From the NCBI GenBank assembly GCA_021808545.1, contig JAKBBM010000011.1:1-47784 (forward strand): 47,784 bases of DNA. Reading direction: 5' to 3'. This stretch comes from Pseudomonadota bacterium (GTDB lineage: Bacteria > Pseudomonadota > Alphaproteobacteria > Acetobacterales > Acetobacteraceae). Positions 26,752 through 44,319 of this stretch are shown here, piece after piece (within the stretch, counting starts at the first letter, position 1; the number at the start of each line of letters is the position of its first letter). The notes under the pieces are model-generated. The model made no database searches and had not been told where the DNA came from. It was given only the letters and a program-made list of their open reading frames with translations. The translations under genes were made by a program, and so were the position numbers.

Positions 26752-27771
26752 ATGCGCATCTCCCACTGGGCCGCTTTGCCGGGGCTTTGCCTCGGGCTTT
26801 GCTTGGGCGCCGTTGCTGCCCAGGCCGCACCGGCCAGCTTTACCGTCTCCGCCTCGCGCATTGCCGAGCAAAAGGCGGTGTTCGCCACGGTGGAGAGCGC
26901 GCATGTGGTGCCCGCCCGGGCGCGCATTGGCGGCACCATCACCAGTTACGAGGTGCGCGATGGCGACATGGTCAAAGCCGGCCAAGAGATCGCGATGGTC
27001 GCCGATCCCGCCATGGTGCAGCAGCTCAACGCGCTTGAGGCCGGAATCGCCGCTGCCAAAGCCCAGCTTGCCCAGGCCAATATCGATTTCACGCGGGCCA
27101 AATCGCTGATCCGCTCGGGCGCTGTTTCGCGCTCGGTCTATGATCAGGCGAAAACCGGTGTCGAGGTCGCTACCAATACGTTAAAGGCGAAAGTGGCGGC
27201 GCATGCCGCCCTGGCGCAGCAAATCGCCGAGGGCGCGGTGCTAGCCCCCGTTTCTGGCCGGGTGCTGCAAACGCCCGTGACCCAGGGCACGGTGGTGATG
27301 AATGGCGACACGGTGGCCCGCATCGCCGAGCAGGATTACGTGCTGCGGCTGGATATACCGGAATTTCACGCCGCCTATCTGCATGTCGGCGATCCGGTGC
27401 GGTTCGACCCGCTTGATCCCACCACCGGCAAGCCGCTTTTTGGCAAGATCACCCTGATTTACCCGCAAATCATCAATGGCCGGGTTGAGGCCGATGCCAC
27501 GGCCCCGGATGTGGGCACGTATTTTGTGGGTGAGCGCGTGCGCGTGTGGGTTTATGCCGGATCGCGCCCTGGAATCGTGATTCCGAAAAGCTTTATCGAT
27601 ACGCGCTTTGGCCTGGATTATGCCGATTTGCGCACCAAGGATGGTCAGGCGGTGGCCGTGCCGATCCAGCGCGGTGAGCCACACCCGACGCCCGCGATGC
27701 CCGACGGGATTGAGATCCTTTCTGGCCTGAAGCCAGGTGATGTTCTGCTGCCGCCGGGCAGCGCGCCATGA
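26752..27771 (+). CDS. RND efflux periplasmic adaptor (membrane fusion protein)
   Basis: Adaptor linking an inner-membrane RND pump to an outer-membrane channel. Of 339 residues, the first ~26 form a signal peptide (cleavage near AQA-AP). A lipoyl half-motif (GTITSYEVRDGDMVKAGQEI), a coiled-coil hairpin (about 85-150) and the second lipoyl half (VLAPVSGRVLQTPVTQGTVV) follow, then the beta-barrel region. Its stop overlaps the pump's ATG (ATGA). No outer-membrane TolC-like gene is nearby, so the channel must be encoded elsewhere. Placement in the bigR operon suggests induction by sulfide or persulfide. Confidence 0.9.
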   Translation: MRISHWAALPGLCLGLCLGAVAAQAAPASFTVSASRIAEQKAVFATVESAHVVPARARIGGTITSYEVRDGDMVKAGQEIAMVADPAMVQQLNALEAGIAAAKAQLAQANIDFTRAKSLIRSGAVSRSVYDQAKTGVEVATNTLKAKVAAHAALAQQIAEGAVLAPVSGRVLQTPVTQGTVVMNGDTVARIAEQDYVLRLDIPEFHAAYLHVGDPVRFDPLDPTTGKPLFGKITLIYPQIINGRVEADATAPDVGTYFVGERVRVWVYAGSRPGIVIPKSFIDTRFGLDYADLRTKDGQAVAVPIQRGEPHPTPAMPDGIEILSGLKPGDVLLPPGSAP

Positions 27772-30700
27772 GGCTGGGACTGTCCGGCGCGCTGACGCGC
27801 TATTTCATTCGCTCCAAACTCACCCCGCTCTTTCTGCTCGCGGCCATGCTGGCGGGCGGCATTGCGCTCAAGACCATCCCGCGCGAGGAGGACCCGCAGA
27901 TTCACGTGCCCATGGTGGACGTGATCGTGAACACCAATGGCCTGAAGGCCTCCGATGCGGTGGAGCTGGTGACCAAGCCGCTGGAGGTGGTGCTGCGCGC
28001 CATTCCGGGGGTGAAGCATATTTACAGCACCACGGTGGATAATCACGTTACCGTCACCGCGCGGTTTGTGGTTGGCACCAATGAGGACAAGGCGGTGCTG
28101 CTGGTCAACGACAAAATCCGCGCCAATATGGACCGTATTCCCATTGGCATTCCCAAACCGCTGGTGGTGGGGCGCGGGATTAACGATGTCGCGATCGTGA
28201 CGCTGACGCTGAGCCCCAAACTGGATGCGGCCCAGCATTGGAGCGAGGCGGCGCTGACCGATCTGGCCCAGAAGCTGCAGGGTGAGCTGATCAAGGTGCC
28301 TAATGTCGGCCTCACCTATATTGCGGGTGAGGACCCGGAGGAAATCCGCATCGAGCCCGAGCCCGAGAAGCTGATGCTGTATGGCGTTACGCTGCAGCAG
28401 CTGGTGGGGCGGCTGCGCGAGGCTAATGATGTGTTTTCCACCGACCCGATCCGCGAGGATGGCAAGATGTACGGTATCGAGGTCGGGCACACGCTGCGCG
28501 GCATTCCCGATATCGGGCTGTTGCTTGTTACCACGCGCGATAACCGCCCGGTTTATGTGCGCGATGTGGCAAAAGTGGTGTTCAGGCCGGCCCCGGTTGA
28601 GCACCGGGTATGGGCCTTTACGCGCGAGGGGGTGAAGTGGACGCAAGCGCCCGCCGTCACACTCGCCATCGCCAAGGTGCATGGCGCCAATGCCGTGAAT
28701 GTCGCGCGCGATGTGCTGGCGCAGCTGAAAATTCTGCGCGGCCAGCTCATCCCCGGCGATATTAACGTGCAGGTGACGCGCGATTACGGACAGACGGCCT
28801 CGCAAAAAGCCAATGAGCTGTTGTTCCATCTGAGCCTCGCCACACTCTCCATCGTGCTGCTGATCGGCTTCGCCATCGGCTGGCGCGAGGCGGGGGTGAC
28901 GCTGTTCGTGATCCCCACGACCATCCTGCTTACCCTCTTCGCCGCCGAGATGATGGGCTACACGATCAACCGTGTCTCGCTCTTCGCGCTTATCTTCGCC
29001 ATCGGCATTTTGGTGGATGACGCGATCGTGGTGGTGGAGAACATCACCCGTCATTGGGCGATGCGCGATGGCCGCCCGCGCCTGACCGCCGCCATCGAGG
29101 CCGTGGCCGAGGTCGGCAATCCCACCATCATCGCGACTCTCACCGTGGTCGTGGCCCTGCTGCCGATGATGTTCGTCAGCGGGCTGATGGGCCCTTACAT
29201 GGCGCCGATTCCAGCCGTCGCCTCCGCCGCCATGGCATTCTCCTTCTTTGTCGCCATGATCATCGCCCCCTGGCTGATGATGAAATTCGGCGGCAACGGG
29301 GCGGGCGTGCATAGCGAACATGCCGATAGCCGGCTGGCGCGGCTGTATATGCGCATCGCCATACCGGTGATCAGAACCCGCAAACGCGCGCTATGGTTTT
29401 TGCTGCTGGTGGGAATGGCGACCATTGCCGCCTGCTCGCTATTTTATTTCGATCTCGTTAAAGTAAAGCTATTGCCGTTCGACAATAAATCCGAACTGGA
29501 TGTGGTGCTGAACCTGCCGCCCGGCGCCACACTTGAGGATACCGAACGCAAGCTCGACCAGATTGCCAGCATTGCCGGGCGCATGCACGCGGTGCGCTCG
29601 ATGCAGGAATATGCTGGCACCGCCGCGCCGTTCGATTTTAACGGGCTGGTACGGCATTATTACGCGCGTAAATCGCCCAATCTGGGTGAGCTGCATATTG
29701 TGCTCGTCGGCAAGGATGAGCGTTCCCGCCAGAGCCACACCATTGCGATGGCTTTGCGCCGCACGCTGGATAAAGGCGTGACGCTGCCGCCGGGTGGCGT
29801 GCTGAAGGTGGTGGAAGTGCCGCCCGGCCCGCCGGTCATCGCCTCGCTGCTTGCCGAAATTTACGGGCCGAACCAGAAAATCCGGCTCGCGGAGGCCGAG
29901 AAGGTCAAGAAAATCTTCAAATCCATTCCCTTCATCGTGGATGTGGATGATAGTTATGGCCGCCCGCCACCGCGCCTGTGCCTGACCGTGAACCAGGATG
30001 AGCTGGAATATTTCGGTGTGCGCCAGGCGGATGTGAACGCCACCATCCGTGACCTGTTTGATGGGGTGGGCATTGGCTATTCCTATCGCGGGCCGGGCCA
30101 TCCGCCGCTGGAGATTGTGGTTGGCCTGCCCAAATCCGGCATGACCTGGAATCAGGACATCGCTTCCACCCCGGTGCCGGCCAATGCCTTGCCAGGCGCG
30201 CGCGGGGTGGTGGAGCTGGGCCAGCTTGTCAGCGCGCAGAAGGTGGAAGGCTCGCGCGCGATTTACCGGCGCGATGGCCATTTTGCCGACATGGTCACGG
30301 GCGAAATGGCGGGCCGCTTTGGGGCGCCGATTTACGGCATGCTGGCCGTGGATAAGGCGATTGAGAAGGCCGATTGGGGCAATCTGCCCAAGCCGCAAAT
30401 CCGCTTTTTCAGCCAACCCAAGGACGAGGCCAAGCCCTCGCTGCTATGGGACGGGGAATGGGAGATCACCTATGTCACCTTCCGCGACATGGGCATTGCC
30501 TTTGGGGTGGCCATTATCGGCATTTACATTCTGGTTGTGGGGCTGTTTGGCAGCTTCAAACTGCCGCTGGTGGTGCTGACGCCAATTCCGCTGACGCTGA
30601 TCGGCATTATGCTCGGCCATTGGCTGCTGGGGGCCGATTTCACCGCCACCTCGATGATCGGCTTCATCGCGCTGGCGGGCATTATCGTGCGCAATTCCAT

Positions 30701-30968
30701 CCTTTTGGTGGATTTCATCCGCTGCCGGCAATCGCCGCACCGGCCGCTGCGCGAGGTGCTGCTGGAAGCGGGCGCGATCCGTGCCAAACCGATTCTGCTG
30801 ACCGCGCTGGCCGCCATGATCGGGGCCGCCACCATCCTGCCGGACCCGATCTTCCAGGGGCTGGCGGTCTCGCTGCTGTTTGGTCTTGCCTCATCCACGC
30901 TGCTGACGCTGCTCGTTATCCCGGCGATTTATGTGGTGCTGCGCGATGACGGCAAGCGTTTCGATTGA
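27768..30968 (+). CDS. RND efflux pump (AcrB/HAE-like permease)
   Basis: Proton-driven inner-membrane pump of 1066 residues with the 12-span, two-loop RND layout. The N-terminus has TIPREEDPQIHVPMVDV, a common mark of the HAE-like group. The proton-relay aspartates are Asp417 and Asp418 in ILVDDAIVVVENI, and the second half ends with IALAGIIVRNSILLVDFI. It is translationally coupled to the adaptor. The substrate is unknown; the sulfide-responsive setting hints at a thiol- or sulfur-related toxic compound, which is inference. The gene is intact and not frame-shifted. Confidence 0.92.
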   Translation: MRLGLSGALTRYFIRSKLTPLFLLAAMLAGGIALKTIPREEDPQIHVPMVDVIVNTNGLKASDAVELVTKPLEVVLRAIPGVKHIYSTTVDNHVTVTARFVVGTNEDKAVLLVNDKIRANMDRIPIGIPKPLVVGRGINDVAIVTLTLSPKLDAAQHWSEAALTDLAQKLQGELIKVPNVGLTYIAGEDPEEIRIEPEPEKLMLYGVTLQQLVGRLREANDVFSTDPIREDGKMYGIEVGHTLRGIPDIGLLLVTTRDNRPVYVRDVAKVVFRPAPVEHRVWAFTREGVKWTQAPAVTLAIAKVHGANAVNVARDVLAQLKILRGQLIPGDINVQVTRDYGQTASQKANELLFHLSLATLSIVLLIGFAIGWREAGVTLFVIPTTILLTLFAAEMMGYTINRVSLFALIFAIGILVDDAIVVVENITRHWAMRDGRPRLTAAIEAVAEVGNPTIIATLTVVVALLPMMFVSGLMGPYMAPIPAVASAAMAFSFFVAMIIAPWLMMKFGGNGAGVHSEHADSRLARLYMRIAIPVIRTRKRALWFLLLVGMATIAACSLFYFDLVKVKLLPFDNKSELDVVLNLPPGATLEDTERKLDQIASIAGRMHAVRSMQEYAGTAAPFDFNGLVRHYYARKSPNLGELHIVLVGKDERSRQSHTIAMALRRTLDKGVTLPPGGVLKVVEVPPGPPVIASLLAEIYGPNQKIRLAEAEKVKKIFKSIPFIVDVDDSYGRPPPRLCLTVNQDELEYFGVRQADVNATIRDLFDGVGIGYSYRGPGHPPLEIVVGLPKSGMTWNQDIASTPVPANALPGARGVVELGQLVSAQKVEGSRAIYRRDGHFADMVTGEMAGRFGAPIYGMLAVDKAIEKADWGNLPKPQIRFFSQPKDEAKPSLLWDGEWEITYVTFRDMGIAFGVAIIGIYILVVGLFGSFKLPLVVLTPIPLTLIGIMLGHWLLGADFTATSMIGFIALAGIIVRNSILLVDFIRCRQSPHRPLREVLLEAGAIRAKPILLTALAAMIGAATILPDPIFQGLAVSLLFGLASSTLLTLLVIPAIYVVLRDDGKRFD

Positions 30969-31937: not shown

Positions 31938-32870
31938 TCAGCCGCCTTCCAGCGCGCGGATGGCAAGCGCCACCGCGGCGGTGCGGGTTTCCACCCCGAG
32001 CTTGGGGTAGATTTGTTCCAGATGCTTGTCGATGGTGCGGTAGCTGACTTCCAAAATCTGTGCGATGTCGCGGTTGGATTTGCCGCGCGCAAGCCAGAGC
32101 AGCACTTCGGTTTCGCGCCGGGTGAGTTTGACCCGCGCTTGCAGGCGGCGAATCGCGTCGTCTTGGTCCTGTTCGGTCACGCGCAGCAAATATTCATCCT
32201 GGCCAAGTTCGCCGATCAGCGCGAATTCCACCCGCTGGCCCGCCTCGGCGGGGCTGCCAGGTATTGGGATGAGCAGCGTGTTGCCGCCAGCCCCTGGCGG
32301 CCCGGCCCGGCGGGTTTGCAGCCAATCCTGTAGTTCAGCTGGCAATGGCGCGCCGGGGGCAAGGCTGCCCAGCAGCCGCCCGGCTTGGTGTGTGCACCAG
32401 CGCAGCCGCCCGTGCGAATCCACGGCCAGAAGATAACGCCCGGCCGCGTCCATGGCCTGCTGGGCGCTGCGGGTGAGCTGGGCATTGGCCAGATGCACGC
32501 GGATGCGCGCGACCAGCTCGCCCGGCTCCACCGGCTTGGTTACATAATCCACCCCGCCGGCCTGTAGCCCGCTCACCACGCTTTGCGTATCGGTCAGCCC
32601 AGTCATGAAAATGACCGGCACCAGGGCAAGGCTTGGATTCTGGCGGATGCGGCGGCAGGTTTCGAACCCGTCCAAGCCGGGCATCAGCGCGTCCAGCAGA
32701 ATGACATCAGGCGTGATTTGCTGCAGCAGGGTGAGCGCCATATCGCCCTGCAGCGCCACCAGAACATTAAAGCCGGCGGGCTCCAGCGTGTCGATCAGCA
32801 GGCGCAGGGCGGTGGGCTCGTCATCCACCACGAGGATGGTGGCGCGCGGGGTTGGCTCAGCGCGGGTCAT
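31938..32870 (-). CDS. LuxR/NarL-type response regulator (partner of the permease-fused kinase)
   Basis: DNA-binding response regulator of 310 residues. The receiver domain occupies about 10-125 with Asp16, Asp17, phospho-acceptor Asp60 and Lys112. A PAS-like middle segment (about 145-235) and a LuxR-type helix-turn-helix (247-305, LTRRETEVLLWLARGKSNRDIA) follow. The ATG lies inside the 3' end of the kinase gene (14-base overlap), so the two are translationally coupled and almost certainly a pair. Probable targets are the divergent fmdAB and the amidase/permease genes; this is inferred from position. Confidence 0.9.
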   Translation of the reverse strand: MTRAEPTPRATILVVDDEPTALRLLIDTLEPAGFNVLVALQGDMALTLLQQITPDVILLDALMPGLDGFETCRRIRQNPSLALVPVIFMTGLTDTQSVVSGLQAGGVDYVTKPVEPGELVARIRVHLANAQLTRSAQQAMDAAGRYLLAVDSHGRLRWCTHQAGRLLGSLAPGAPLPAELQDWLQTRRAGPPGAGGNTLLIPIPGSPAEAGQRVEFALIGELGQDEYLLRVTEQDQDDAIRRLQARVKLTRRETEVLLWLARGKSNRDIAQILEVSYRTIDKHLEQIYPKLGVETRTAAVALAIRALEGG

Positions 32871-35800
32871 GTTCGATCTCCTCCAGCGCGCGCAGAAATT
32901 CGGGCAGGCGCACCTCCTCCGCCAGCTTGTTCAGCTGGCTGGTGAGTGGGCGGGCCGCAGGCTCATCCGCCGCAATCCGGGCCAGACATGCCGTGAGCCC
33001 GCTGATAAAGCCGATTCCGGCCAGGTCGCGCAACTGCGCCAGATGCGGGCGCAGCGCGCGGCGGGCGGCGGCGGGCTCATCCGCGCACGGCGGCGCGGGT
33101 GGAGCGGCGAGATCCCCCCATTCCCACTCCAGCCGCAGCAATTGGCCGATGGTTGTGAACAAACGCGCAATATCCACCGGCTTGGCCAAGGCGGCATCGT
33201 AGGGCGCATCGGCCGTTGGGCGAAGCTGCGGCGCATGCGCGGAGAGGATGATGATGGGGATCTGCCCCCGCCGTCCGGCGCGCAAGCGGCGGGCCAGGTC
33301 CAGCCCATCCAGCTCGGTCCCGCCCTCGTGCGGCATGGACAAATCCAGCAGAAACAAATCCGCCTCATGTTCCGCGGCCAGGCGCAGGCAGCTCGGGCCA
33401 TCAGGTGCTGTGAGCAGGGTAAAGCCGGCCGGGGTCAGCGCATCGCGCAGCAGGGCGCGGTGCAGGGCGTTATCCTCGGCCGCGATGATGGTGCGCCGCC
33501 GCCCCGCATAGCCGGTGATGCGGCTGGGCGGAGGGGGGGCCGCGCGCGGTTGCGATGCCGCCGGCAGGCGCAGCTGCACCTTGAACCGGCTGCCCACGCC
33601 CAGCGTGCTTTCAACTGAAATATGCCCGCCCAAAATCTCCACCAGCAATTTGGTGATGGTCAGGCCAAGGCCAATGCCCTGTACGGGGCCGCCATGATCC
33701 TGAGCCACGCGCTCGAACGGCTCAAAAATGCGGGTGAGATTGCCGGGGGCGATGCCAGGGCCGGTATCGCTGACCTCGAATTCCATGACCTCGCCGGGGG
33801 CGCGCAAGGTCAGGGCGATGCCGCCTTTTTCGGTGAATTTAAGCGCGTTGGAGAGCAGGTTGATGAGGATCTGGCGCAGGCGGATTTCGTCAGTGAATAC
33901 GCGGCCGGGCAGGCGGGCGGGATAATCAAACCGGAAGTCCAGCCCCTTGGCCGCAGCCTGCAGGCGGAACATGTCGGCGATCTGGTTGAGAAAATCCATC
34001 AGCCGAATTTCGCGCCGGTCGATCTCGATACGACCGGCCTCGATCTTGGAAATGTCCATCAGCCCCTCGATCAGCCCGTGCAGATGCTCGCCGCTGCGGC
34101 GGATGATGTGCAGGGCCGCGCGCCGGTGGGGTGGGATTGACTCGTCATTTTCCAAAAGCTGGGCATAGCCCAGCACGGCATTCAACGGCGTGCGCAGCTC
34201 GTGGCTGACGCCGACGACAAAGCGGGTTTTGGCGAGGTTGGCGGCTTCGGCCACTTCACGCGCGCGGGCGAGCTTGGCGTCGGTGCGGCGGTGGGCGTCG
34301 ATCTCGGTGAGCAGGAGCTGGGTCTGGCGGCGGCTTTCCTCCTCGGCCGCGAGGCTTGATTCGCGCGCGAGCACTTGCAGCCAGGCGAATACGCCCGCGA
34401 CCAGGAGCAGGCAGATGAAGGCGCGCACCAGGGTGGTGGCCAGCGGGTCAGCCGCCGCATGGGGCAGACTGCCCGCCTGCCAGTAAAGGGCGAGGAAAAT
34501 CATCCCCAAAGTGAGCCCGGTGAGGCTGAATACGCCAAGGAAGCGCAGCAGTACTGGGTCCAGTTTCTGGCGTAAGGAGGCCGGTAGAAGCTGGTGCATC
34601 AGCGCTGAGAGTTGCGCGCTGTAGCGGGCATGGGGCTTGCAAGCATCGCGGCAGCGGGAATCGAGCGTGCAGCAGAGCGAGCAGATGGGCGCGGCATAGG
34701 CCGGGCAATAGGCGATATCTTCCGGCTCGAACGCATTGCCGCAAACGCCGCAGGCGCGCGGGCCGGCACTCTGCCAAGAACGGCGCGGCTTGCGGGCAAA
34801 ATAATAGCGCCCGCGCGTCATCCAGGCGATGAAGGGCACCAGCAGGCAGGCGGCGGCCAGCGCCAGAAAAGGTGCAAAGGCATGGGCATGGGAGCCAAGC
34901 GGCCCGGCCAGGGCGGCGGTGCCGATGAGCGTTGCCCCGGCCATGGCGCCGGTGCCGACGGGGTTGATATCATACAGATGGGCGCGCTTGAACTCGATGG
35001 CGCGGGGCCCAAGCCGCAGACCCTTGACCAGCACGAGATCGGCGAAAATGGACCCGACCCAGGCGCAGGCCAGCACGGAATAGAAGGTCAGCAGCGGCTC
35101 GATGGCGTGGTAGATGCCAAGCTCCATGAGCAGCAGCGCGAAGGCGGCGTTGAAGATGAGCCAGACCACCCGGCCCGGATGGCGGTGGGTGAGGCGGGAG
35201 AAGAAATTGGACCAGGCGATGGACCCGGCATAGGCGTTGGTGACGTTTATTTTGGTCTGCGCCAGGGCAATGAGCAGGGCCGCCGCCGCCAATGCACCCC
35301 CTGGCGGCAGGAATTGCCCGTAAACAAGCCGGTACATGACCATGGGTTTGCCCGCCATGTCCGCCGGCAGGCCCGCTTGCAGGGCGAGCACGGCCAGGGC
35401 CGAGCCCGCCGCCATTTTCAGCATGCCGGGCACGATCCAGCCCGGCCCAGCCAGAATGAGGGCGGCCCACCAGCGCAGTTTGCGCCGTGGCGGCGGGGGT
35501 GGGAGGAAGCGCAGATAATCCACCTGCTCGCCAATTTGCGCGAGCAGCGAGACGATGACCGAGGCGCACGCGCCAAAAGCCAGCAGCGAAAACCCGGTCT
35601 GCCCGGTGCTGCCCGCAAAATGCCGCCAACCCGCCAGCAGGGCCGGGTGCGTGAACAGAAACAAGATGGGCAGGAAATTGAGCAGCAGCCAGGCCGGCTG
35701 GGTCCAGCCCTGAAAGCGGCTGATGAAGGTGATGCCGTAAGCGACCAGCGGGATAACGCCCGCCACGCTGACCATATAGCCGAGCCAGAGCGGGATGCTG

Positions 35801-36234
35801 AAGACGAGTTGCAGCATGAAGGCGAAGATCGAGGCTTCGATAGCGAAGAAGATGAAGGTGAAGGAGGCGTAGATCAGCGAGGTGATGGTGGAGCCGATAT
35901 AGCCAAAGCCGGCGGCGCGGGTGAGCAGGTCAATATCCACGCCCGCGCGCGCCGCCACATAGGCGATGGGCCCGGCGGTGAGCGCGATGAGCAGCCCCAC
36001 GGCGAAAATCGCGGCCAGCGCGTTGAGCGTGCCATATTGCAAGGTGATGGCGCCGCCGATCGCCTCCAGCGCCAGAAAGGAGGTGGCGCCAAAGGCGGTG
36101 TTGGCGATGGTGCCGTTGGAGAATTTGCGCGCCGCGCGCGCGGTGAAGCGCAGGGCGTAATCTTCCATCGTCTCGTCGGCGACGAACTGGTTGTAGGACC
36201 GGCGGACCGATGAAATACGCTGTGGCAGTGCCAT
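32857..36234 (-). CDS. NCS1 permease-fused hybrid sensor histidine kinase
   Basis: An 1125-residue fusion. Residues 1-480 form a complete purine/cytosine-permease-like (NCS1) transporter with about 12 spans, closely matching the stand-alone permease at 39214-40893; shared stretches include [20 protein letters not shown] (329-347 region) and AQIGEQVDYLRF. Residues 495-532 hold eight cysteines (495, 498, 510, 518, 521, 522, 528, 532). Two more helices (about 562-590, 600-622) and a coiled coil lead to the kinase: His678 (VSHELRTPLN), N-box near 792-796, DTGPG (823-827), GIGLGL (853-858). The receiver has Asp964, Glu920, Asp921 and Lys1018. A helical tail (1040-1125) follows. Likely a transport-like sensor of a short amide; the ligand is inferred. 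Confidence 0.92.
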   Translation of the reverse strand: MALPQRISSVRRSYNQFVADETMEDYALRFTARAARKFSNGTIANTAFGATSFLALEAIGGAITLQYGTLNALAAIFAVGLLIALTAGPIAYVAARAGVDIDLLTRAAGFGYIGSTITSLIYASFTFIFFAIEASIFAFMLQLVFSIPLWLGYMVSVAGVIPLVAYGITFISRFQGWTQPAWLLLNFLPILFLFTHPALLAGWRHFAGSTGQTGFSLLAFGACASVIVSLLAQIGEQVDYLRFLPPPPPRRKLRWWAALILAGPGWIVPGMLKMAAGSALAVLALQAGLPADMAGKPMVMYRLVYGQFLPPGGALAAAALLIALAQTKINVTNAYAGSIAWSNFFSRLTHRHPGRVVWLIFNAAFALLLMELGIYHAIEPLLTFYSVLACAWVGSIFADLVLVKGLRLGPRAIEFKRAHLYDINPVGTGAMAGATLIGTAALAGPLGSHAHAFAPFLALAAACLLVPFIAWMTRGRYYFARKPRRSWQSAGPRACGVCGNAFEPEDIAYCPAYAAPICSLCCTLDSRCRDACKPHARYSAQLSALMHQLLPASLRQKLDPVLLRFLGVFSLTGLTLGMIFLALYWQAGSLPHAAADPLATTLVRAFICLLLVAGVFAWLQVLARESSLAAEEESRRQTQLLLTEIDAHRRTDAKLARAREVAEAANLAKTRFVVGVSHELRTPLNAVLGYAQLLENDESIPPHRRAALHIIRRSGEHLHGLIEGLMDISKIEAGRIEIDRREIRLMDFLNQIADMFRLQAAAKGLDFRFDYPARLPGRVFTDEIRLRQILINLLSNALKFTEKGGIALTLRAPGEVMEFEVSDTGPGIAPGNLTRIFEPFERVAQDHGGPVQGIGLGLTITKLLVEILGGHISVESTLGVGSRFKVQLRLPAASQPRAAPPPPSRITGYAGRRRTIIAAEDNALHRALLRDALTPAGFTLLTAPDGPSCLRLAAEHEADLFLLDLSMPHEGGTELDGLDLARRLRAGRRGQIPIIILSAHAPQLRPTADAPYDAALAKPVDIARLFTTIGQLLRLEWEWGDLAAPPAPPCADEPAAARRALRPHLAQLRDLAGIGFISGLTACLARIAADEPAARPLTSQLNKLAEEVRLPEFLRALEEIEHDPR

Positions 36235-36335: not shown

Positions 36336-36351
36336 GCGTAAGGAAATACGC
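36336..36351. promoter_or_regulatory. Candidate operator in the kinase-fmdA divergent region
   Basis: A perfect inverted repeat, GCGTA (36336-36340) and TACGC (36347-36351), has a 6-base spacer AGGAAA. It sits in the 217-base gap between the sensor-kinase gene (leftward) and fmdA (rightward), about 100 bases before the fmdA start. A degraded neighbour, CCGTATTCCGTTCGG (36358-36372), lies 6 bases further on. Dyads of this size suit a LuxR/NarL-type dimer such as the regulator encoded at 31938-32870. No experimental support. Confidence 0.4.
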
Positions 36352-36451
36352 AACCCCCCGTATTCCGTTCGGCGGGCCGATTTTCGAGGCTGGTTAAGGC
36401 GCGCAACCGCGCCCGTTTATCAACGCCTGCAGTCCGAATGGAGACAAGCCC

Positions 36452-37684
36452 GTGCCAGAGACGCTGATTAAAGTCGATCTTTCAAGCTCGCCGCTGACCA
36501 ATGACATGGTGCATAATCGCTGGCACCCGGAGATTCCGATGGTGGCCAAGGTCAAGCCCGGCGACGATTTCATTCTGGAATGTTATGACTGGACCGGCGG
36601 GTTCATCAAGAATAACGACAGCGCCGATGATGTGCGCGATGTGGATTTGTCCACCGTGCATTATCTCTCTGGCCCGATCGAGGTGGAAGGCGCTGAGCCG
36701 GGCGATCTGCTGGTGGTCGATTTTCTCGATATCGGCGTGCTGCCCGGCCATGAATGGGGGTTTAACGGGTTTTTCTCCAAGCAGAATGGCGGCGGGTTTT
36801 TGACCGATCATTTTCCGCTCGCGCAAAAATCGATCTGGGACATCAAGGGCATGTTCACGAGCTCGCGCCATATTCCAGGCGTAAGCTATGCCGGGCTGAT
36901 CCATCCCGGCTTGATTGGCTGCCTGCCGGATGCCGACATGCTGGCGGCCTGGAATAAGCGCGAGGCGGCGCTGATTGCCACCAACCCCACGCGCGTGCCG
37001 GGCCTGGCCAACCCGCCTTATGCCCCGACGGCGCATATGGGCCGCATGAGCGGGCCTGCGCGCGACAAGGCCGCGGCCGAAGGGGCGCGCACCGTGCCGC
37101 CGCGCGAGCATGGCGGGAATTGCGACATCAAGGATCTCTCACGCGGGGCGCGGGTTTACTTCCCGGTTTATGTGAAGGGGGCGGGCTTGTCGGTGGGCGA
37201 TCTGCATTTCAGCCAGGGCGATGGCGAGATTACCTTTTGCGGCGCGATCGAGATGCCGGGCTTCATTCATCTGGGCATTCATTCGCTGATCAAGGGCGGC
37301 ATGGCGAAATACGGGATCAAGAACCCGATCTTCAAGCCAAGCCCGATCAAGCCCAATTACCAGGATTATCTGATCTTCGAGGGGATCTCGGTGGATGATG
37401 CGGGCGAGCAGTATTATCTGGACGTGTTCACCGCCTATCAGCAGGCTTGTTTGAACGCGATCAATTATCTCACCAAATTCGGCTATTCGCGTGCCCAGGC
37501 TTATTCCATTCTCGGCACCGCGCCGGTGCAGGGGCATATTTCAGGCATTGTGGACGTGCCCAATGCCTGCGCGACCTTGTACCTGCCGACCGAGATTTTC
37601 GAGTTCGACATCAACCCCACCGCCGCCGGGCCGGCCAAGATTATCACCGGCGGGGTGGATCTGCCAATTTCGCCGGATAAGTGA
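36452..37684 (+). CDS. fmdA: Formamidase (FmdA, acetamidase/formamidase family)
   Basis: Hydrolyses formamide, and more weakly other short amides, to the acid and ammonia. The 410-residue sequence matches the Methylophilus-type FmdA over its full length (HNRWHPEIPMV, HPGLIGCLPD, PREHGGNCDIKDLSRGARVYFPVYV, GDGEITFCGAIEM). GTG start with ggag 8 bases upstream (36440-36443). fmdB follows after 6 bases. It is divergent from the permease-kinase gene. Nothing is truncated. Formamide is the leading substrate; acetamide-like amides are the alternative. Confidence 0.94.
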   Translation: MPETLIKVDLSSSPLTNDMVHNRWHPEIPMVAKVKPGDDFILECYDWTGGFIKNNDSADDVRDVDLSTVHYLSGPIEVEGAEPGDLLVVDFLDIGVLPGHEWGFNGFFSKQNGGGFLTDHFPLAQKSIWDIKGMFTSSRHIPGVSYAGLIHPGLIGCLPDADMLAAWNKREAALIATNPTRVPGLANPPYAPTAHMGRMSGPARDKAAAEGARTVPPREHGGNCDIKDLSRGARVYFPVYVKGAGLSVGDLHFSQGDGEITFCGAIEMPGFIHLGIHSLIKGGMAKYGIKNPIFKPSPIKPNYQDYLIFEGISVDDAGEQYYLDVFTAYQQACLNAINYLTKFGYSRAQAYSILGTAPVQGHISGIVDVPNACATLYLPTEIFEFDINPTAAGPAKIITGGVDLPISPDK

Positions 37685-37690
37685 GGCCGC

Positions 37691-38023
37691 ATGCCGATTT
37701 ACGATTATCTGTGCGATGCGTGCGGGCCGTTCACGGCGCTGCAACCCATGTCGGCCTATGAGGCCGACATGAATTGCCCCGAATGCGGGGGTGCCGCGCC
37801 GCGGGCCTTGCTGAGCGTGCCGCATTTCGCGGTTATGGATGCGGGACGGCGTAAGGCGCATGCGCTGAATGAGCGTAACGCCCATATGCCCGCGACCAGT
37901 GCCGGCACCGGGCGGCATCCGCGCGGCTGTGCGTGCTGCAAGCCCGCGGGCAAACGCCAGGCTGATGCGCCGGCCGCGATGAAAACGGCAACCGGCCCCA
38001 GGCCCTGGATGATCAGCCACTAA
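37691..38023 (+). CDS. fmdB: FmdB-like zinc-ribbon protein
   Basis: Small protein (110 aa) with an N-terminal FmdB-type zinc ribbon: Cys8, Cys11, Cys29, Cys32 (MPIYDYLCDACGPF and NCPECGG). FmdB is encoded next to formamidase in Methylophilus, where a regulatory role was proposed; its true activity is not settled. The C-terminal half is basic and probably disordered, with an extra GCACC cluster near residue 80. The ATG is 6 bases after fmdA. It ends facing amiE, with a shared terminator between them. Confidence 0.88.
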   Translation: MPIYDYLCDACGPFTALQPMSAYEADMNCPECGGAAPRALLSVPHFAVMDAGRRKAHALNERNAHMPATSAGTGRHPRGCACCKPAGKRQADAPAAMKTATGPRPWMISH

Positions 38024-38092: not shown

Positions 38093-39139
38093 TTATTCAG
38101 CCGCTTTTGTCAGGCTGTCTGCGTGCGGGATGCCCTCGATCGGGCATTCCGCCGTGCCCAGCGTGGTGCGGGTTATGGCTTCCACCTTGGCGCGCGTGGC
38201 TTCGGGGTCGGTCACCCATTCACGGTAAAAATCGAACGGGCAGACCGCCATGCCGGGCTGATTCTCGCGCGAATTGAGCATGCCCGTATAGCCGCGATGC
38301 AGAAGCTTGAAGAGATGGTTTTGCGATTGCAGATTCTTGCGCGCATCGCGGATGAGGAATTTGGACAGGGCCGCGTATTGGATGCCGTAATCCTCCTCGC
38401 CGCATTCGCCGAGCGTACGGCCATCAAACCCGATGATGGCGGAATGGCCGAAATAGGAATACACGCCGTCAAACCCCGTGGCGTTGGCCACCGCCACATA
38501 AACATTATTGGCCCAGGCCATGGTTTTGGCCATGAGCACCTGCTGCTCCTTGGCCGGGTACATATAGCCCTGGCAACGCACGATCAGCTCCGCCCCCTTC
38601 ATCGCGCAATCGCGCCAGATTTCGGGGTAATTGCCGTCATCGCAGATGATGAGGCTGAGTTTGAGCCCTTTGGGGCCTTCCGTCACATAGGTGCAGCCGC
38701 CGGGATACCAGCCCTCGACTGGCACCCAGGGCATGATCTTGCGGTATTTCTGCACGATCTCGCCTTGATCGTTGATCAGCACCAGCGTGTTGTAGGGTAC
38801 TTTATTGGGGTGGTCTTCGTGCCGCTCGCCGGTGAGGGAGAATACGCCCCAGACCTTGGATTTGCGGCAGGCGGCGGCGAAAATCTCGGTTTCCGCGCCA
38901 GGGATGGTGGCGGCGGTTTCCATCATCTCGCCGGGATCATACATGATCCCTTGCGTGGAATATTCCGGAAAGACGACAAGATCGAGCCCGGGCAGACCAA
39001 GCTTCATACCCGGAATCATGTCGGCGATCTTTTGCGCGTTCTCCAGAACCTCGGCCTTGGTGTGCAGGCGGGGCATTTTGTAGTTGACGACGGCAACGCC
39101 GACCGTATCGGCGCTGCTGGAAATATCTCCGTGCAGCAT
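38093..39139 (-). CDS. amiE: Aliphatic amidase (AmiE)
   Basis: Nitrilase-superfamily amidase (348 aa) that hydrolyses short aliphatic amides (acetamide, propionamide, acrylamide; formamide in AmiF variants) to acid and ammonia. It aligns without gaps to Pseudomonas AmiE over most of its length, with the catalytic set Glu59, Lys134, Glu142 and Cys166 at the same positions. Sequences such as [19 protein letters not shown] and [17 protein letters not shown] are diagnostic. It lies 74 bases downstream of the permease gene on the same strand, with a terminator between, so it may have read-through or its own promoter. Confidence 0.96.
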
Positions 39140-39213: not shown

Positions 39214-40893
39214 TTAGTGGTTGAGATCAGCCGGTGTGCCGTAAGAGAGCGCCGGCTCGGCGTGGGGTTTCTTGCACTCATCATGGCAGGCGGAATCGAG
39301 CGAGCAGCAGAGCGAGCAGATATTACCCTTATGGAAGGGGCAGCCTGTCATGTCCTGCTTTTCATATTCAAAGCCGCAGGCCACGCAATTCATCGTGTCG
39401 TGATGCACGCCGGCATGATAGTTGGCGTCACGCGCGATGTAGTATTTGCCCTTGGTGACGATTGCGATAACCGGCGAAAGGATGAAGGCCACACCAAGTG
39501 CTATGAAGGCGGAATAGGCTTGCGCATATTCACCAAAGGCGCCGAAGAAGGCGAGCACCGAGATGGTCGAGGCGATCATCATGGAGCCAAAGCCGACCGG
39601 GTTGAAGTTGAACAGATGCGCGCGCTTGAACTCAACATAAGACGGGCTGAGCTTGAGGATGGGCTTGTTGATGACGAGATCGGCCGTGACCGCGCCGATC
39701 CAGGCCACCGCCACGTTGGAGTAGAAGCCGAGAATGTGCCCGAGGAACGAGAACATGTTCAGCTCCATCAATGTGAGCGAGATGCCGACATTGAAGAAGA
39801 TGTACACAACGCGGCCCGGATGCGCGTGCAGCAGGCGTGAGAAGAAATTAGACCAGGAGAGCGAGCCGGAATAGGCGTTGGTGACGTTGATCTTGATCTG
39901 CGAGAGAATGACGAAGAAGGTGGCGACGCTGATGGCGGCGAAACCCGCCCCCAAAATATAAGTGAAGCCGGCATGGTACATCTGGATTGGCTCATTGGCC
40001 TTGGCCAGGGGCGTGCCGTGCGCAACCGCAACCGAGGCAAAGAACGAGCCCATGAGCTGCTTGGCCGCCCCCAGAATCACCCAGCCCGGGCCAGCACCGA
40101 GCACGGCGAGCCACCAGCCAAAGGAGCTTTTTTTGGTTTTATCCGGCATGAAGCGCAGATAATCCGCCTGCTCGCCGATTTGCGCGATGAGCGAGAGCGC
40201 GATGCCAGCGGCCGAGCCGAACAGAAGCGGGTTGAAGCCCGAGCCGCTGGGCGAGGAGCCCGCAAAGCTGGTCCAGTTGGAGATGGCGTGCGGGTCGATC
40301 GCCAGTACCGCGATGGGCGGGGCGAAGAGCAGGGTGAGCCAGATTGGTTGGGTCCAGACCTGCAGCTTGGAGAGCAGCGTCATGCCGAAGGCAACCAGCG
40401 GAATGATCATCAGCGAGCCGATGGCATAACCAATGGGCAGCGGGATGCCGAAATAAAGATTGAAGGCCTGCGCCATGATCGAGCCTTCAAGGGCGAAGAA
40501 GATGAAGGTGAACGAGGCGTAGATGACCGAGGTGATGGTGGAGCCGAGATAGCCAAAGCCCGCCCCGCGGGTCAGCAGATCGACATCGACATTATATTTG
40601 GCGCAGTAATAGGCAATGGGAATGCCGGTGAGGAAGATGATGGTGGCGGCCGCGATAATGCCCCAGAACGCGTTGGTGAAGCCATATTGCACGGCGAGCG
40701 AGCCGCCAATGGCCTGGTCGGCGAGATAGGCGATGCCGCCAAGCGCCGCCGAGAACACCGCGTATTGCGACCAGGTGCGAAAGCTCTTGGGCGCATAGCG
40801 TAGGGAGTAATCCTCGAACACCGGGTTGGAGACGAGCTTGTTGAATTTCCGTCGCGGCGGGCCGCTGCTGGTGGCCGGATTTGTTGTAGACAT
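39214..40893 (-). CDS. NCS1-type permease (purine-cytosine permease family) with C-terminal cysteine module
   Basis: Twelve-span symporter-like membrane protein of 559 residues, strong ribosome site aggagg before the ATG. The core matches the sensor domain of the fused kinase, including DLLTR-x-[18 protein letters not shown] and [20 protein letters not shown] (334-353 region). After the last span comes a cysteine module: Cys503, 506, 518, 526, 529, 530, 536, 540 ([20 protein letters not shown]), spaced exactly as in the kinase. Upstream of amiE, it is the likely importer of amide or a related nitrogen compound. The family includes cytosine, allantoin and hydantoin carriers; the true substrate is not known. 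Confidence 0.92.
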
Positions 40894-41018
40894 GATAACC
40901 TCCTAGGCGCTGAACGCGTGAATGTGCCGTGGCCGTGTTGGGGCGTTTCTTTACGGACACATTCACCGGTGAGGCGCATACTTGGGAATAAGGCGGTTAC
41001 CGGGGGGGATGCGGTATT

Positions 41019-42401
41019 CTACGTATAAGCCGGGCTGAGGCGGATGGCTGGCTCGTCCGCGCCCAGGAACGGGGCGAGCAGGGCGGCGGCGGTGTCCGCC
41101 CAGGCGGGCGGGGTAAAGCCCGTGGCGATGCGCGCGCTTAAAGCGGCGACCGGTGTGGGGTTTTCGATCCAGCCGCGGATCAGCTCATAGGCGCTGTTCA
41201 GATCGTCCGGGTCGAAATAACCGCAGAACGCGCCGCCCGCCTCGGGGATGGAAGCGCGCATCGAGGCCGCCACGGGCTTGCCGAAACAAAGCGATTCCGT
41301 GACCGGCAGACCCCAGCCCTCATACAGGGAGGGGAACAGCGTGAACAGACAATGCTGGTACAGGCTGGCCAGATCGGTATCCGAGGGCTGGTCGATAAAG
41401 CGGATCTTGCCGTTCAGGTAATTGGCGTTGGCGAGCTGCTGCATCAGATCGGCGGTCAGCCAGCCAACCTTGCCCGCGAACACCAAGGTAGGCACGAGGT
41501 CGGGCGGGCAGGTGGCCAGCAGGCGGCGCCAGACGCGCAACATGCCGGCGTGATTCTTGCGCGCCTCTATGGTGCCGACCATCAGCACATAAGGCCCGCG
41601 CAGGAGCGGCGGCAGAAAGCTGCGCGCCTGGCACATGGCGCCTCCTGCCGGCAGCACCACGCAAGGCGGGACGTGTTTGCCCCGGCGGGCGAGGCTGGCG
41701 GCAAGATCCTGCGCCGTGTTCTGCGAGACCGCGAACATAAGATCGGCGCGCGGGACCGCGCCGTCCAGCCACAAATCAAAATCCCGGACCATGGAGGCCG
41801 TACACCATTCGGGGAACAGATCGGGGATCATGTCATGCGCGAGGAAAGCAAGGCCGGCGCCGCGCTGGGCCAGGGAGTCGAGAAAAGCGGGATCGTACGG
41901 GCGCTCCCACGAGGCGCCGAGATTGAGCAGCCAGTCGCCCGGGCCAAATTCGATGGCTGGGCCGTTCGTATCGAACACATGCCCGCCTAAGCGGGCGGCA
42001 CCGGGGCGGGTGCGCGCCAGATCGGACAAGGCGGTCCGCGCCAGATCCCGCGTACTTCGCAGCCCCGCCCCGCCCGCGCGCAGCATGGCGCCAAGCGGCA
42101 GCCGGTAGCGTGGCGCCACATGCCGGGCCACCCCAGACCAAGGCCGGGCTTTGTGCCGCGGTGGGGCGGATGCTGCTGGCGCGCGCTCGGCCAGGGCGCG
42201 GATGCCCGATTCCAAAGCCGGGAAATGCACGCGCCTGAACTGGCCGCTGGCGGTGCGCCGGCAAAACCCAACCTCGCCATGGGGCCCGGCCAGACGCAGG
42301 GCCGCGCCGCATGTCTCGAAACTGAAGCGCTGAATGCCCGTGGGGCGCGACGCGCTTTGGAAGAAACGAATCAGATCCTCGACGTCGAGCCAGATGGTCA
42401 T
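41019..42401 (-). CDS. Family 4-type glycosyltransferase
   Basis: Cytoplasmic glycosyltransferase of the GT4/group 1 (GT-B) kind, probably building a surface polysaccharide. Start ATG 42401 (MTIWLDVEDLIRFF, with ggggggag upstream) gives 460 residues; a GTG 8 codons earlier is possible. The C-terminal donor domain is clear: YVLMVGTIEARKNHAGML and, near residue 360, EGWGLPVTESLCFGKPVAAS with the conserved E-x7-E type pair. No other polysaccharide genes lie nearby, so it is an isolated gene; donor and acceptor are unknown. The stop lies 125 bases upstream of the permease start. Confidence 0.85.
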   Translation of the reverse strand: MTIWLDVEDLIRFFQSASRPTGIQRFSFETCGAALRLAGPHGEVGFCRRTASGQFRRVHFPALESGIRALAERAPAASAPPRHKARPWSGVARHVAPRYRLPLGAMLRAGGAGLRSTRDLARTALSDLARTRPGAARLGGHVFDTNGPAIEFGPGDWLLNLGASWERPYDPAFLDSLAQRGAGLAFLAHDMIPDLFPEWCTASMVRDFDLWLDGAVPRADLMFAVSQNTAQDLAASLARRGKHVPPCVVLPAGGAMCQARSFLPPLLRGPYVLMVGTIEARKNHAGMLRVWRRLLATCPPDLVPTLVFAGKVGWLTADLMQQLANANYLNGKIRFIDQPSDTDLASLYQHCLFTLFPSLYEGWGLPVTESLCFGKPVAASMRASIPEAGGAFCGYFDPDDLNSAYELIRGWIENPTPVAALSARIATGFTPPAWADTAAALLAPFLGADEPAIRLSPAYT

Positions 42402-43059: not shown

Positions 43060-44319
43060 ATGGGCCGCGAGATCGGCGATCTCGCGCTGATGACCATGCT
43101 TGGCTTTTCATCCGGTCTGCCATTTCTGCTCTCGGGCTATACGCTCAGCATGTGGCTCTCCACCGCGCATCTGGGGTTGGAGGTGATTGGGCTGACCGCC
43201 AATCTGGGCTTGCCTTATCTGCTGAAATTCTTGTGGGCGCCGGTGTTTGATGAGGTGCGGCCCCTGTTTTTAGGGCGCCGGCGCGGCTGGCTGTTGCCGG
43301 TGCAGGCGGCGTTGATCGCCTGTATCGTGGGGTTGGGACTCTCTAACCCGGTGGCGCATGTCTGGCGCACGCTGGGGCTGGCCGCCGCGGTCGCTTTTTG
43401 TTCGGCAAGCCAGGATATTCTCATTGATGCCTGGCGTATCGAGAGTTTCGCGCCCCGGCTGCAGGGCATGGCGCTGGCCTGCGAGATTTGGGGTTACCGG
43501 GTGGCGGCGCTGATCTCGGGTGCGGGGGCGATTGCGCTTTCGGCCCATATTGGCTGGCATAAGGCGTTTTTGCTGATGGCGGCGCTGGGGCTGGTGGGGC
43601 CCGTTGCGGTGCTGCTGGCGCGCGAGCCGGTGGTGACGCGCGCGGTGATGGCCAAAACCGGCCTGCGCGCGCGGCTGGGAATGGCGGTGTGGGCGCCGCT
43701 GGGCGAGTTTTTGGCGCGGCGCGGGGCGGTGCTGGTCATCGCCTTCATCGTGCTGTTTCGCTTGGGCGAGGCGCTGGCCGGGGTGATGCTGCCGCCTTAT
43801 TATGTGCATCTTGGCTTCAATCGTAACGCCATTGCCTTGGCCACGGGGCCAGCTGCCTTGCTGGCGGCGCTGGCCGGGGCGGGTTTGGGTGGCGTGCTGG
43901 TGGCGCGGCTTGGCATGGGCCGCGCGCTGGTGGTGAGCACCTTGTTCCAGACCCTGGTGATGGCGATGTATCCGGCGCTGGGGCTGTTTCCGGGCCATGC
44001 GTCCATGCTGGTGGCGACCTCGCTGGTGGAATCCTTTGCCGGCACGCTGGCTTATGCCGCGTTCCTCACCTACCTCTCCAGCCTGTGCGATCCTGAACAT
44101 ACGGCCACGCAATATGCGCTGCTCTCCTCGCTCTCGCCGTTGGCGCTGCATACGGTGGGCGGCGTGTCCGGCGTGTTGGCGGACTGGTTTGGCTTCATCC
44201 CCTTCTTCGTGTTCACCACCCTGGCGACCTTGCCCGCCCTGGGCGTGATGCTGGTGATTTTGCGCCGCTACCCGCCCGCACCACGGCGCGAGGTGCTTAC
44301 GCAAGCCGCCGGATGTTAG
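43060..44319 (+). CDS. ampG: AmpG-like major facilitator (muropeptide permease family)
   Basis: Twelve-span MFS protein of 419 residues from ATG 43060 (MGREIGDLALMTMLGFSSGLPF). The N-terminal pattern LGFSSGLPFLLSGYTLSMWL and LGLPYLLKFLWAPVFDE is that of AmpG, which imports peptidoglycan fragments for recycling, with EGF-like motifs ASQDILIDAWRIE. An in-frame ATG at 42988 would overlap the DUF3617 gene by 47 bases and is less likely, though no strong ribosome site marks either start. No beta-lactamase regulator gene is nearby. Family call good; muropeptide specificity inferred. Confidence 0.8.
   Translation: MGREIGDLALMTMLGFSSGLPFLLSGYTLSMWLSTAHLGLEVIGLTANLGLPYLLKFLWAPVFDEVRPLFLGRRRGWLLPVQAALIACIVGLGLSNPVAHVWRTLGLAAAVAFCSASQDILIDAWRIESFAPRLQGMALACEIWGYRVAALISGAGAIALSAHIGWHKAFLLMAALGLVGPVAVLLAREPVVTRAVMAKTGLRARLGMAVWAPLGEFLARRGAVLVIAFIVLFRLGEALAGVMLPPYYVHLGFNRNAIALATGPAALLAALAGAGLGGVLVARLGMGRALVVSTLFQTLVMAMYPALGLFPGHASMLVATSLVESFAGTLAYAAFLTYLSSLCDPEHTATQYALLSSLSPLALHTVGGVSGVLADWFGFIPFFVFTTLATLPALGVMLVILRRYPPAPRREVLTQAAGC

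Follow-up and report, generated by a model that had tools for sequence, protein, structure and literature searches.

The window, the whole 47,784-nucleotide stretch of an Acetobacteraceae contig (JAKBBM010000011.1), contains a gene, P0001, whose product joins an NCS1-like permease, an eight-cysteine cluster, two extra helices and a hybrid histidine kinase in one chain (Table 1). The first 14 bases of the P0003 gene are also the last 14 of the fusion gene, and P0003 has both the receiver and the GerE helix-turn-helix of a LuxR/NarL response regulator. Beyond the fusion lie genes for the formamidase FmdA, an FmdB-family protein and the aliphatic amidase AmiE; the last is on the same strand as the stand-alone permease gene P0002 and downstream of it. 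P0002 is probably an amide/urea carrier. On the plus strand at 26752-30968, translations alone indicate genes for a membrane-fusion protein and an RND-type efflux pump near the locus.

Table 1 Genes, domains and candidate sites. Plain numbers are window positions; numbers after a locus handle belong to that locus.
Feature	Position	Strand	Remark
NCS1-like permease/Cys cluster/2 TM/hybrid histidine kinase fusion (P0001)	32857..36234	-	1125 aa
P0001 permease domain	34795..36162	-	about residues 25-480
P0001 eight-cysteine cluster	34639..34752	-	residues 495-532
P0001 two extra helices into long signalling helix	34360..34557	-	about residues 560-625, span ends estimated
P0001 HisKA, phosphoacceptor His678	34033..34233	-	Pfam, residues 668-734
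P0001 HATPase_c	33562..33894	-	Pfam, residues 781-891
P0001 receiver domain, Asp964	33148..33489	-	Pfam Response_reg, residues 916-1029
LuxR/NarL-type response regulator (P0003)	31938..32870	-	Pfam Response_reg + GerE
Candidate operator ATACGCAACCCCCCGTAT	36346..36363	.	112 bp before fusion gene, 89 bp before formamidase gene
Formamidase FmdA (P0004), divergent from fusion	36452..37684	+	NCBIfam FormamaseFmdA 745.5 bits, cut-off 500
FmdB-family zinc-ribbon protein (P0006)	37691..38023	+	Pfam/NCBIfam
Aliphatic amidase AmiE (P0005)	38093..39139	-	NCBIfam aliphatic amidase 704.3 bits, cut-off 427
Stand-alone NCS1-like permease, same Cys cluster (P0002)	39214..40893	-	
Candidate operator ATGCGGTATTCTACGTAT	41009..41026	.	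116 bp before stand-alone permease gene
Second-architecture fusions	L060:6612-9242, L201:6499-9156, L202:6663-9347	-	
Stand-alone permeases without Cys cluster, near urease	L063:9074-10684, L064:8699-10309, L062:8622-10379	-	

Integrity, domains and fold of the fusion protein

The original prediction, made from the sequence alone, had described an uninterrupted frame of 1125 residues without giving its strand; the frame is present on the minus strand, from 36234 down to 32857. A frameshift or an assembly join between the permease and kinase parts was looked for and none was found. The closest relative among the loci kept, L121, comes from a metagenome-assembled genome of a different study; its genes run in the order permease, amidase, FmdB/FmdA, fusion, regulator, as in the window, and its best segment is 71% identical. 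Permease, cysteine cluster, kinase and receiver lie in a single frame in 77 of the best 80 named loci that were kept, the exceptions being L133 and L148, which are interrupted, and L180, in which the receiver falls below the threshold. L121 keeps the locus and the single frame recurs in 77 of these 80 loci, and on these grounds an assembly artefact or a chance fusion was rejected.

Pfam found HisKA, HATPase_c and Response_reg in P0001 but left the permease part, for which an NCS1 search had also been suggested, without a match. The predicted positions of His678 and Asp964 were correct, and each is kept in all 99 aligned long fusions, which were picked for a long tail after the permease, broken or short copies being excluded. 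The N and G boxes (N792/N796; D823, G825, G827, G855 and G857) and all eight cysteines are likewise kept in 99/99 of these sequences. P0001 therefore has the three domains of a hybrid histidine kinase together with their catalytic residues. In the AlphaFold2 model (mean pLDDT 84.3, pTM 0.61), the permease helices fall within residues 40-472, where we read 12 transmembrane segments, in agreement with the full 12-span domain originally proposed. The cysteine cluster and the two extra helices are also present in the model, the former as a small strand/helix domain and the latter as two long helices at residues 560-587 and 592-695. The cluster, which P0002 has as well, is a putative metal site and probably binds a metal. 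The Pfam listing had no match at E up to 1 for residues 480-668, with the library's STAC coverage not assured, and a defence library search gave no match. After the receiver there is a helical tail (residues 1036-1125; window 32860-33129, minus strand), with no Pfam match and no histidine that by eye was obviously that of an HPt domain.

A permease fold of residues 1-480 had been set beforehand as a point on which the prediction could fail, and residues 23-475 aligned to the CodB structure. The best fold matches of the permease domain were NCS1 and other LeuT folds, the nearest solved structures were CodB and Mhp1 (18% identity in those alignments), and the predicted structure has the NCS1 version of the LeuT fold. 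With the whole fusion as query, Foldseek gave kinases only among the 50 best matches listed, and searching the solved structures by sequence gave no usable relative. When the permease was compared by hhalign with seven NCS1-related sequences, including CodB and L067 (which is over the PF02133 cut-off), the probability was 99.9% (E 1.2e-35, 406 columns), showing homology at the profile level; with CodB alone it was 53% (E 0.00013). Structure prediction and profile comparison together support the NCS1-type assignment. At its curated cut-off, PF02133 (Transp_cyt_pur) matched neither P0001, P0002 nor any of 32 members, and we therefore file P0001 as an NCS1-like branch only, not as a PF02133 member. 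The Pfam Amt domain had no match in P0001.

Stand-alone permeases and a second kinase type

It had been proposed that the pocket regions of the fusion and of the neighbouring stand-alone permease are nearly identical. The proposal held for TM3 (33/45 positions, 73%) and TM6 (17/27, 63%) and to a lesser degree for TM8 (23/39, 59%), but not for TM1 (10/26); the identity is 49% in the cysteine region and 253/545 overall. The core motifs of TM3, TM6 and TM8 are common to sensors and stand-alones, and 87 positions, including Q326, K328, N330, N333 and Y335, are conserved in all five groups that were compared. Twelve positions differ between 102 fused and nine stand-alone permease domains while each side is at least 85% uniform. 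The sensor and stand-alone residues are S/A at 52, F/Y at 53 and L/D at 56 in TM1, and A/S at 336 in TM8; F53, L56 and A336 occur in 100%, 95% and 99% of the sensors, the stand-alones having Y53, D56 and S336. Residues 53, 56 and 336 are, we assume, around the substrate and ion binding place of NCS1 carriers. Because the TM3, TM6 and TM8 motifs are shared and candidate operators precede both genes, it is plausible that the sensor binds the same compound as P0002, but the differences at 52, 53, 56 and 336 speak against it.

The hybrid fusions sampled form one clade (SH-aLRT 91 in a quick tree of 69 rows; 82/75 in a careful tree of 39 rows). In the careful tree both fusion types group together (89/73) and so do the stand-alones (87/66), neither grouping being strongly supported. 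Fusions and stand-alones may thus be separate clades, and the residue differences are therefore expected partly from ancestry. Of the nine outgroup rows, four (L207, L067, L215 and L216) carry S336, L211-L214 having L and CodB A, and none carries D56, so either state may be the older one. The differences may mark a receptor uncoupled from the ion, or only ancestry. With up to 56% identity between P0002 and some fusions, we considered that P0002 might be a sensor that lost its kinase; this was not supported, P0002-type sequences standing outside the fusions in both trees.

In three loci (L060, L201 and L202) the permease, cysteine cluster and helix pair are joined to a different kinase, which lacks a receiver and whose best NCBIfam match in L060 is AtoS, below the cut-off. 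By eye, a receiver-kinase gene comes after the fusion gene there, with an OmpR-type regulator gene as well in L060 and L202, and all three fusions are near FmdA. The sensor residues at 52, 53, 56, 171 and 336 are common to both kinase types. No palindrome of the kind described below was found before these three fusions among the four best weight-matrix sites of each, as expected with another regulator. Two kinase types on one permease unit are what a portable input module would give, and support that view of it. Six other fusions (L203-L206, L208 and L209) form one clade and lie beside urease genes; the L210 fusion is outside this clade, yet also beside urease. Among stand-alone relatives without the cysteine cluster, UreC is in the same 19-kb stretch in three of four loci (L062, L063 and L064; not L066), and these three permeases may be NCS1-like urea carriers unseen by Pfam. 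The L063 stretch also has a NicO nickel transporter.

Gene linkage and a candidate operator

By our count, a matching open frame of at least 850 aa is present in 35/200 genomes of a family sample, 25/385 of a class sample and 52/398 of a phylum sample; these samples overlap, and the counts include the window's own genome and the second kinase type. A scan of named genomes gave at least 598 candidate stretches, 596 of them coding for a relative; one gene may account for two of them. The 80 loci kept are the best matches to the fusion query and are therefore biased to close relatives; all 80 have permease, cysteine cluster, kinase and receiver matches. The hosts include Bradyrhizobium, Methylobacterium, Pseudomonas, Alcanivorax, Marinobacter, Vreelandella and Methyloversatilis.

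A homologue of the LuxR-type regulator follows on the same strand in 78 of the 80 loci, within 300 bases of the fusion stop in 76, and it is missing from L136 and L173, both of which stop soon after the fusion. This supports the proposed pairing of sensor and regulator. The regulator also adjoins the fusion in 26 of 29 further hybrid-fusion neighbourhoods (L032-L059 and L065); L035 and L038 end at a contig edge and L055 differs. In L055 (4594-10764, minus strand) the kinase fusion stops short of the receiver; the latter has a frame of its own ~2 kb away, with the regulator adjoining it on the far side, some 2.5 kb from the kinase.

Genes for amide and urea use surround most of these pairs. Among the best 80 loci, UrtA was found in 74, UrtB in 72, UrtC in 70, UrtD in 69 and UrtE in 68 (one representative of each passes its NCBIfam cut-off), and FmdA in 55, FmdB in 54, AmiE in 28 and UreC in 8. 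As to the question raised at the outset, whether the fusion always neighbours amidase or formamidase genes, such neighbours are frequent, but FmdA was not found in 25/80 loci (and UrtA not in 6/80), some loci ending at contig edges. No codA homologue was detected at E 1e-5 in the 80 loci and 17 further ones. The presence of both FmdA and AmiE in the window favours amides as the ligand here. For the whole family we keep the ligand as urea/amide, because in the available part of one paper a Bradyrhizobium transporter beside FmdA/AmiE is argued to carry amide rather than urea (PMC3098086), and in that of another the fmd cluster of Methylophilus methylotrophus is reportedly induced by both formamide and urea (PMC10781810). 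The idea that P0002 has taken the place of the Urt transporter was set aside: genome G000 (93% complete) has no PF13433 protein and G153 weak matches only, but G096 and G179 have strong ones.

A palindrome with the consensus ATACGTCAnnTGACGTAT recurs in the gaps between sensor and UrtA genes. For the motif, 73 loci were taken in which UrtA is divergent and no more than 1.5 kb away; thinning by k-mer similarity left 54. Discovery used 57 regions that included 150 bases of UrtA coding sequence; the commonest gapped pair occurred in 38 of them, the maximum in three block-shuffled sets being 14 or 15. At least 12 of 16 positions were matched in 49/54 non-redundant gaps (68/73 of all), where shuffles expect 0.4/54, and in 4/1040 random segments of the same loci. 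The 7-2-7 inverted form of the consensus is one that we take to resemble NarL-family sites.

The window's two best weight-matrix sites are those at 41009 and 36346. The former scored 17.2, a value that none of 20 shuffled windows reached, and has one mismatch to the operator arms. The latter scored 7.0, which is weak (best of shuffled windows, 3.5 to 16.2); it is the only exact ATACG-N8-CGTAT in the 2.4-Mb genome, a 5-bp-arm pattern chosen after seeing this site, and with one mismatch allowed the genome has 17 matches, fewer than the 33 of the reversed control. A third one-mismatch arm match on the contig, at 44150-44167 inside long open reading frames, is probably due to chance. The weight-matrix scan covered 24 loci, of which 14 hybrid-fusion loci were outside the matrix training (L121, L032, L033, L203-L206, L208-L210, L135, L052, L074 and L057). 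By our reading the top site lies in an expected promoter gap in 12 of these 14, some of which may be close kin of training loci; L206 and L210 had no good site. In L061, which has a stand-alone permease with an amidase, the top site was not at the permease.

Proposed mechanism and relation to known systems

P0001 adjoins genes for amide/urea uptake and breakdown, and these bacteria therefore probably detect such nitrogen sources through it. P0001 and P0003 are likely, in our view, to form a two-component system: short amides (formamide, acetamide), urea or both would be sensed, and the genes for their uptake and hydrolysis switched on. In this scheme, in which we infer the ligand, the direction of the signal, the regulator-DNA pairing and whether transport occurs, the NCS1-derived domain would bind its ligand from the periplasmic side, like its transporter relatives, and a conformational change would reach the kinase by way of the cysteine-cluster domain and the two extra helices. 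The kinase would then phosphorylate the LuxR-type regulator, with the fused receiver probably tuning this step. The phosphorylated regulator would bind palindromes like the consensus and activate its own operon, the hydrolases FmdA and AmiE, and the uptake genes, which would be of the UrtABCDE type in most loci and here probably the stand-alone NCS1-like permease. The NCS1 fold, the complete hybrid kinase, the regulator pairing and the amide/urea linkage all agree with the transporter-like sensor originally proposed; flux reporting, the other part of that proposal, is hypothetical.

The permease domain might instead both transport the amide or urea and inform the kinase of flux or occupancy; CbrA likewise transports histidine and signals. 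Such a true transceptor would account for the core motifs and the 87 positions that sensors share with stand-alones, and the SLC5 domain of CbrA does transport histidine according to the text available of PMC7096432. We nevertheless regard it as rather unlikely, since sensors differ from stand-alones at TM1 52, 53, 56 and TM8 336 (which ancestry alone may explain), separate uptake genes such as UrtA are usually nearby in the best loci, and Ks-Amt5 lost transport on becoming a sensor, as far as the accessible part of PMC5764959 describes it.

It is also conceivable that the permease is a membrane scaffold and that the signal is cytoplasmic, either the metal or redox state of the cysteine cluster or a protein contact, the nitrogen genes being output only. 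The SLC5 domain of CbrA is reportedly not essential for signal perception (available text of PMC9100948), and the P0001 permease therefore need not be the sensing part; the invariance of the eight cysteines points the same way. This seems improbable to us, because the cluster is also carried by stand-alone permeases without a kinase, sensor and carrier agree more in TM3, TM6 and TM8 than in the cysteine region, and none of the neighbours noticed points to metal or redox control. A nucleobase or hydantoin sensor would be expected from the NCS1 relatives CodB and Mhp1, the nearest solved structures, but the Pfam NCS1 model matches 0/32 members, the neighbours are amide/urea genes, and no homologue of codA, the nucleobase gene sought, was found in the 97 loci, which makes a ligand of this kind very improbable.

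A wider history can be sketched tentatively for the sensing of amides or urea by P0001 and its relatives, although we would sooner bet against it as a whole. An NCS1-type urea/amide carrier may once have become a dedicated, non-transporting receptor, spread through the Pseudomonadota and been coupled to at least two kinase types, with TM1 and TM8 losing polar residues (Y53F, D56L and S336A in alignment terms); its sister group would be NCS1-like urea/amide carriers invisible to Pfam. Since a sensor and a sister carrier occur in one locus, this change from transporter to receptor is directly testable. If the proposed system is real, urt-fmd operons would have a specific regulator, and NCS1-like carriers would join SLC5 and Amt as transporter families used as histidine-kinase input. 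The amiC/amiR regulators are reported to be absent from a urt-fmd-type cluster of Pseudomonas veronii (PMC13209695, available part).

The class of transporter-kinase fusions is known, SLC5/STAC kinases and Ks-Amt5 being precedents for transporter folds as kinase inputs in the parts available of PMC9100948 and PMC5764959, and its NCS1-like branch appears undescribed in the open literature searched. No NCS1-kinase fusion was found there among the matches listed, subscription journals being largely outside the search. The fmd/urt operons of M. methylotrophus, Bradyrhizobium and Pseudomonas resemble the window neighbours, and the accessible portions of the papers on them (PMC10781810, PMC3098086, PMC13209695) name no permease-kinase sensor; in what is available of a 2026 genome paper (PMC13296017), the label of such a neighbour goes no further than a hybrid kinase and a LuxR regulator. 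Two other candidate relatives were set aside on their partial texts, the ammonia sensor GrtK having a different membrane domain (PMC12918730) and the S-component/5TMR "transceptor" another fold (PMC11109136). CodB and Mhp1 themselves differ from P0001, which is 18% identical to them, unmatched by the Pfam NCS1 model, fused to a kinase and linked to amide/urea genes. Ks-Amt5, like P0001, uses a member of a transporter family as kinase input for a nitrogen compound, but it has an Amt domain and a DHp/CA kinase part of 269 residues (PMC5764959, in part), whereas P0001 has an NCS1-like fold, a cysteine cluster and a receiver.

Among the closest parallels are CrbS/MxtR and CbrA, in which, as in P0001, a whole LeuT-fold transporter domain is fused to a histidine kinase; CrbS also shares the receiver and the LuxR-type partner (available sections of PMC9100948 and PMC7918813). 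The partner of CbrA is CbrB and that of CrbS is CrbR, whose site, an imperfect inverted repeat in the part available of PMC5715377, is like the palindrome found here. P0001 differs from these SLC5/STAC kinases in that its transporter domain is NCS1-like and probably not SLC5, its linker is an eight-cysteine cluster with two helices, its Pfam listing contains no PAS or STAC domain (within the STAC coverage noted above), and the genes linked to it are those of amide and urea use.
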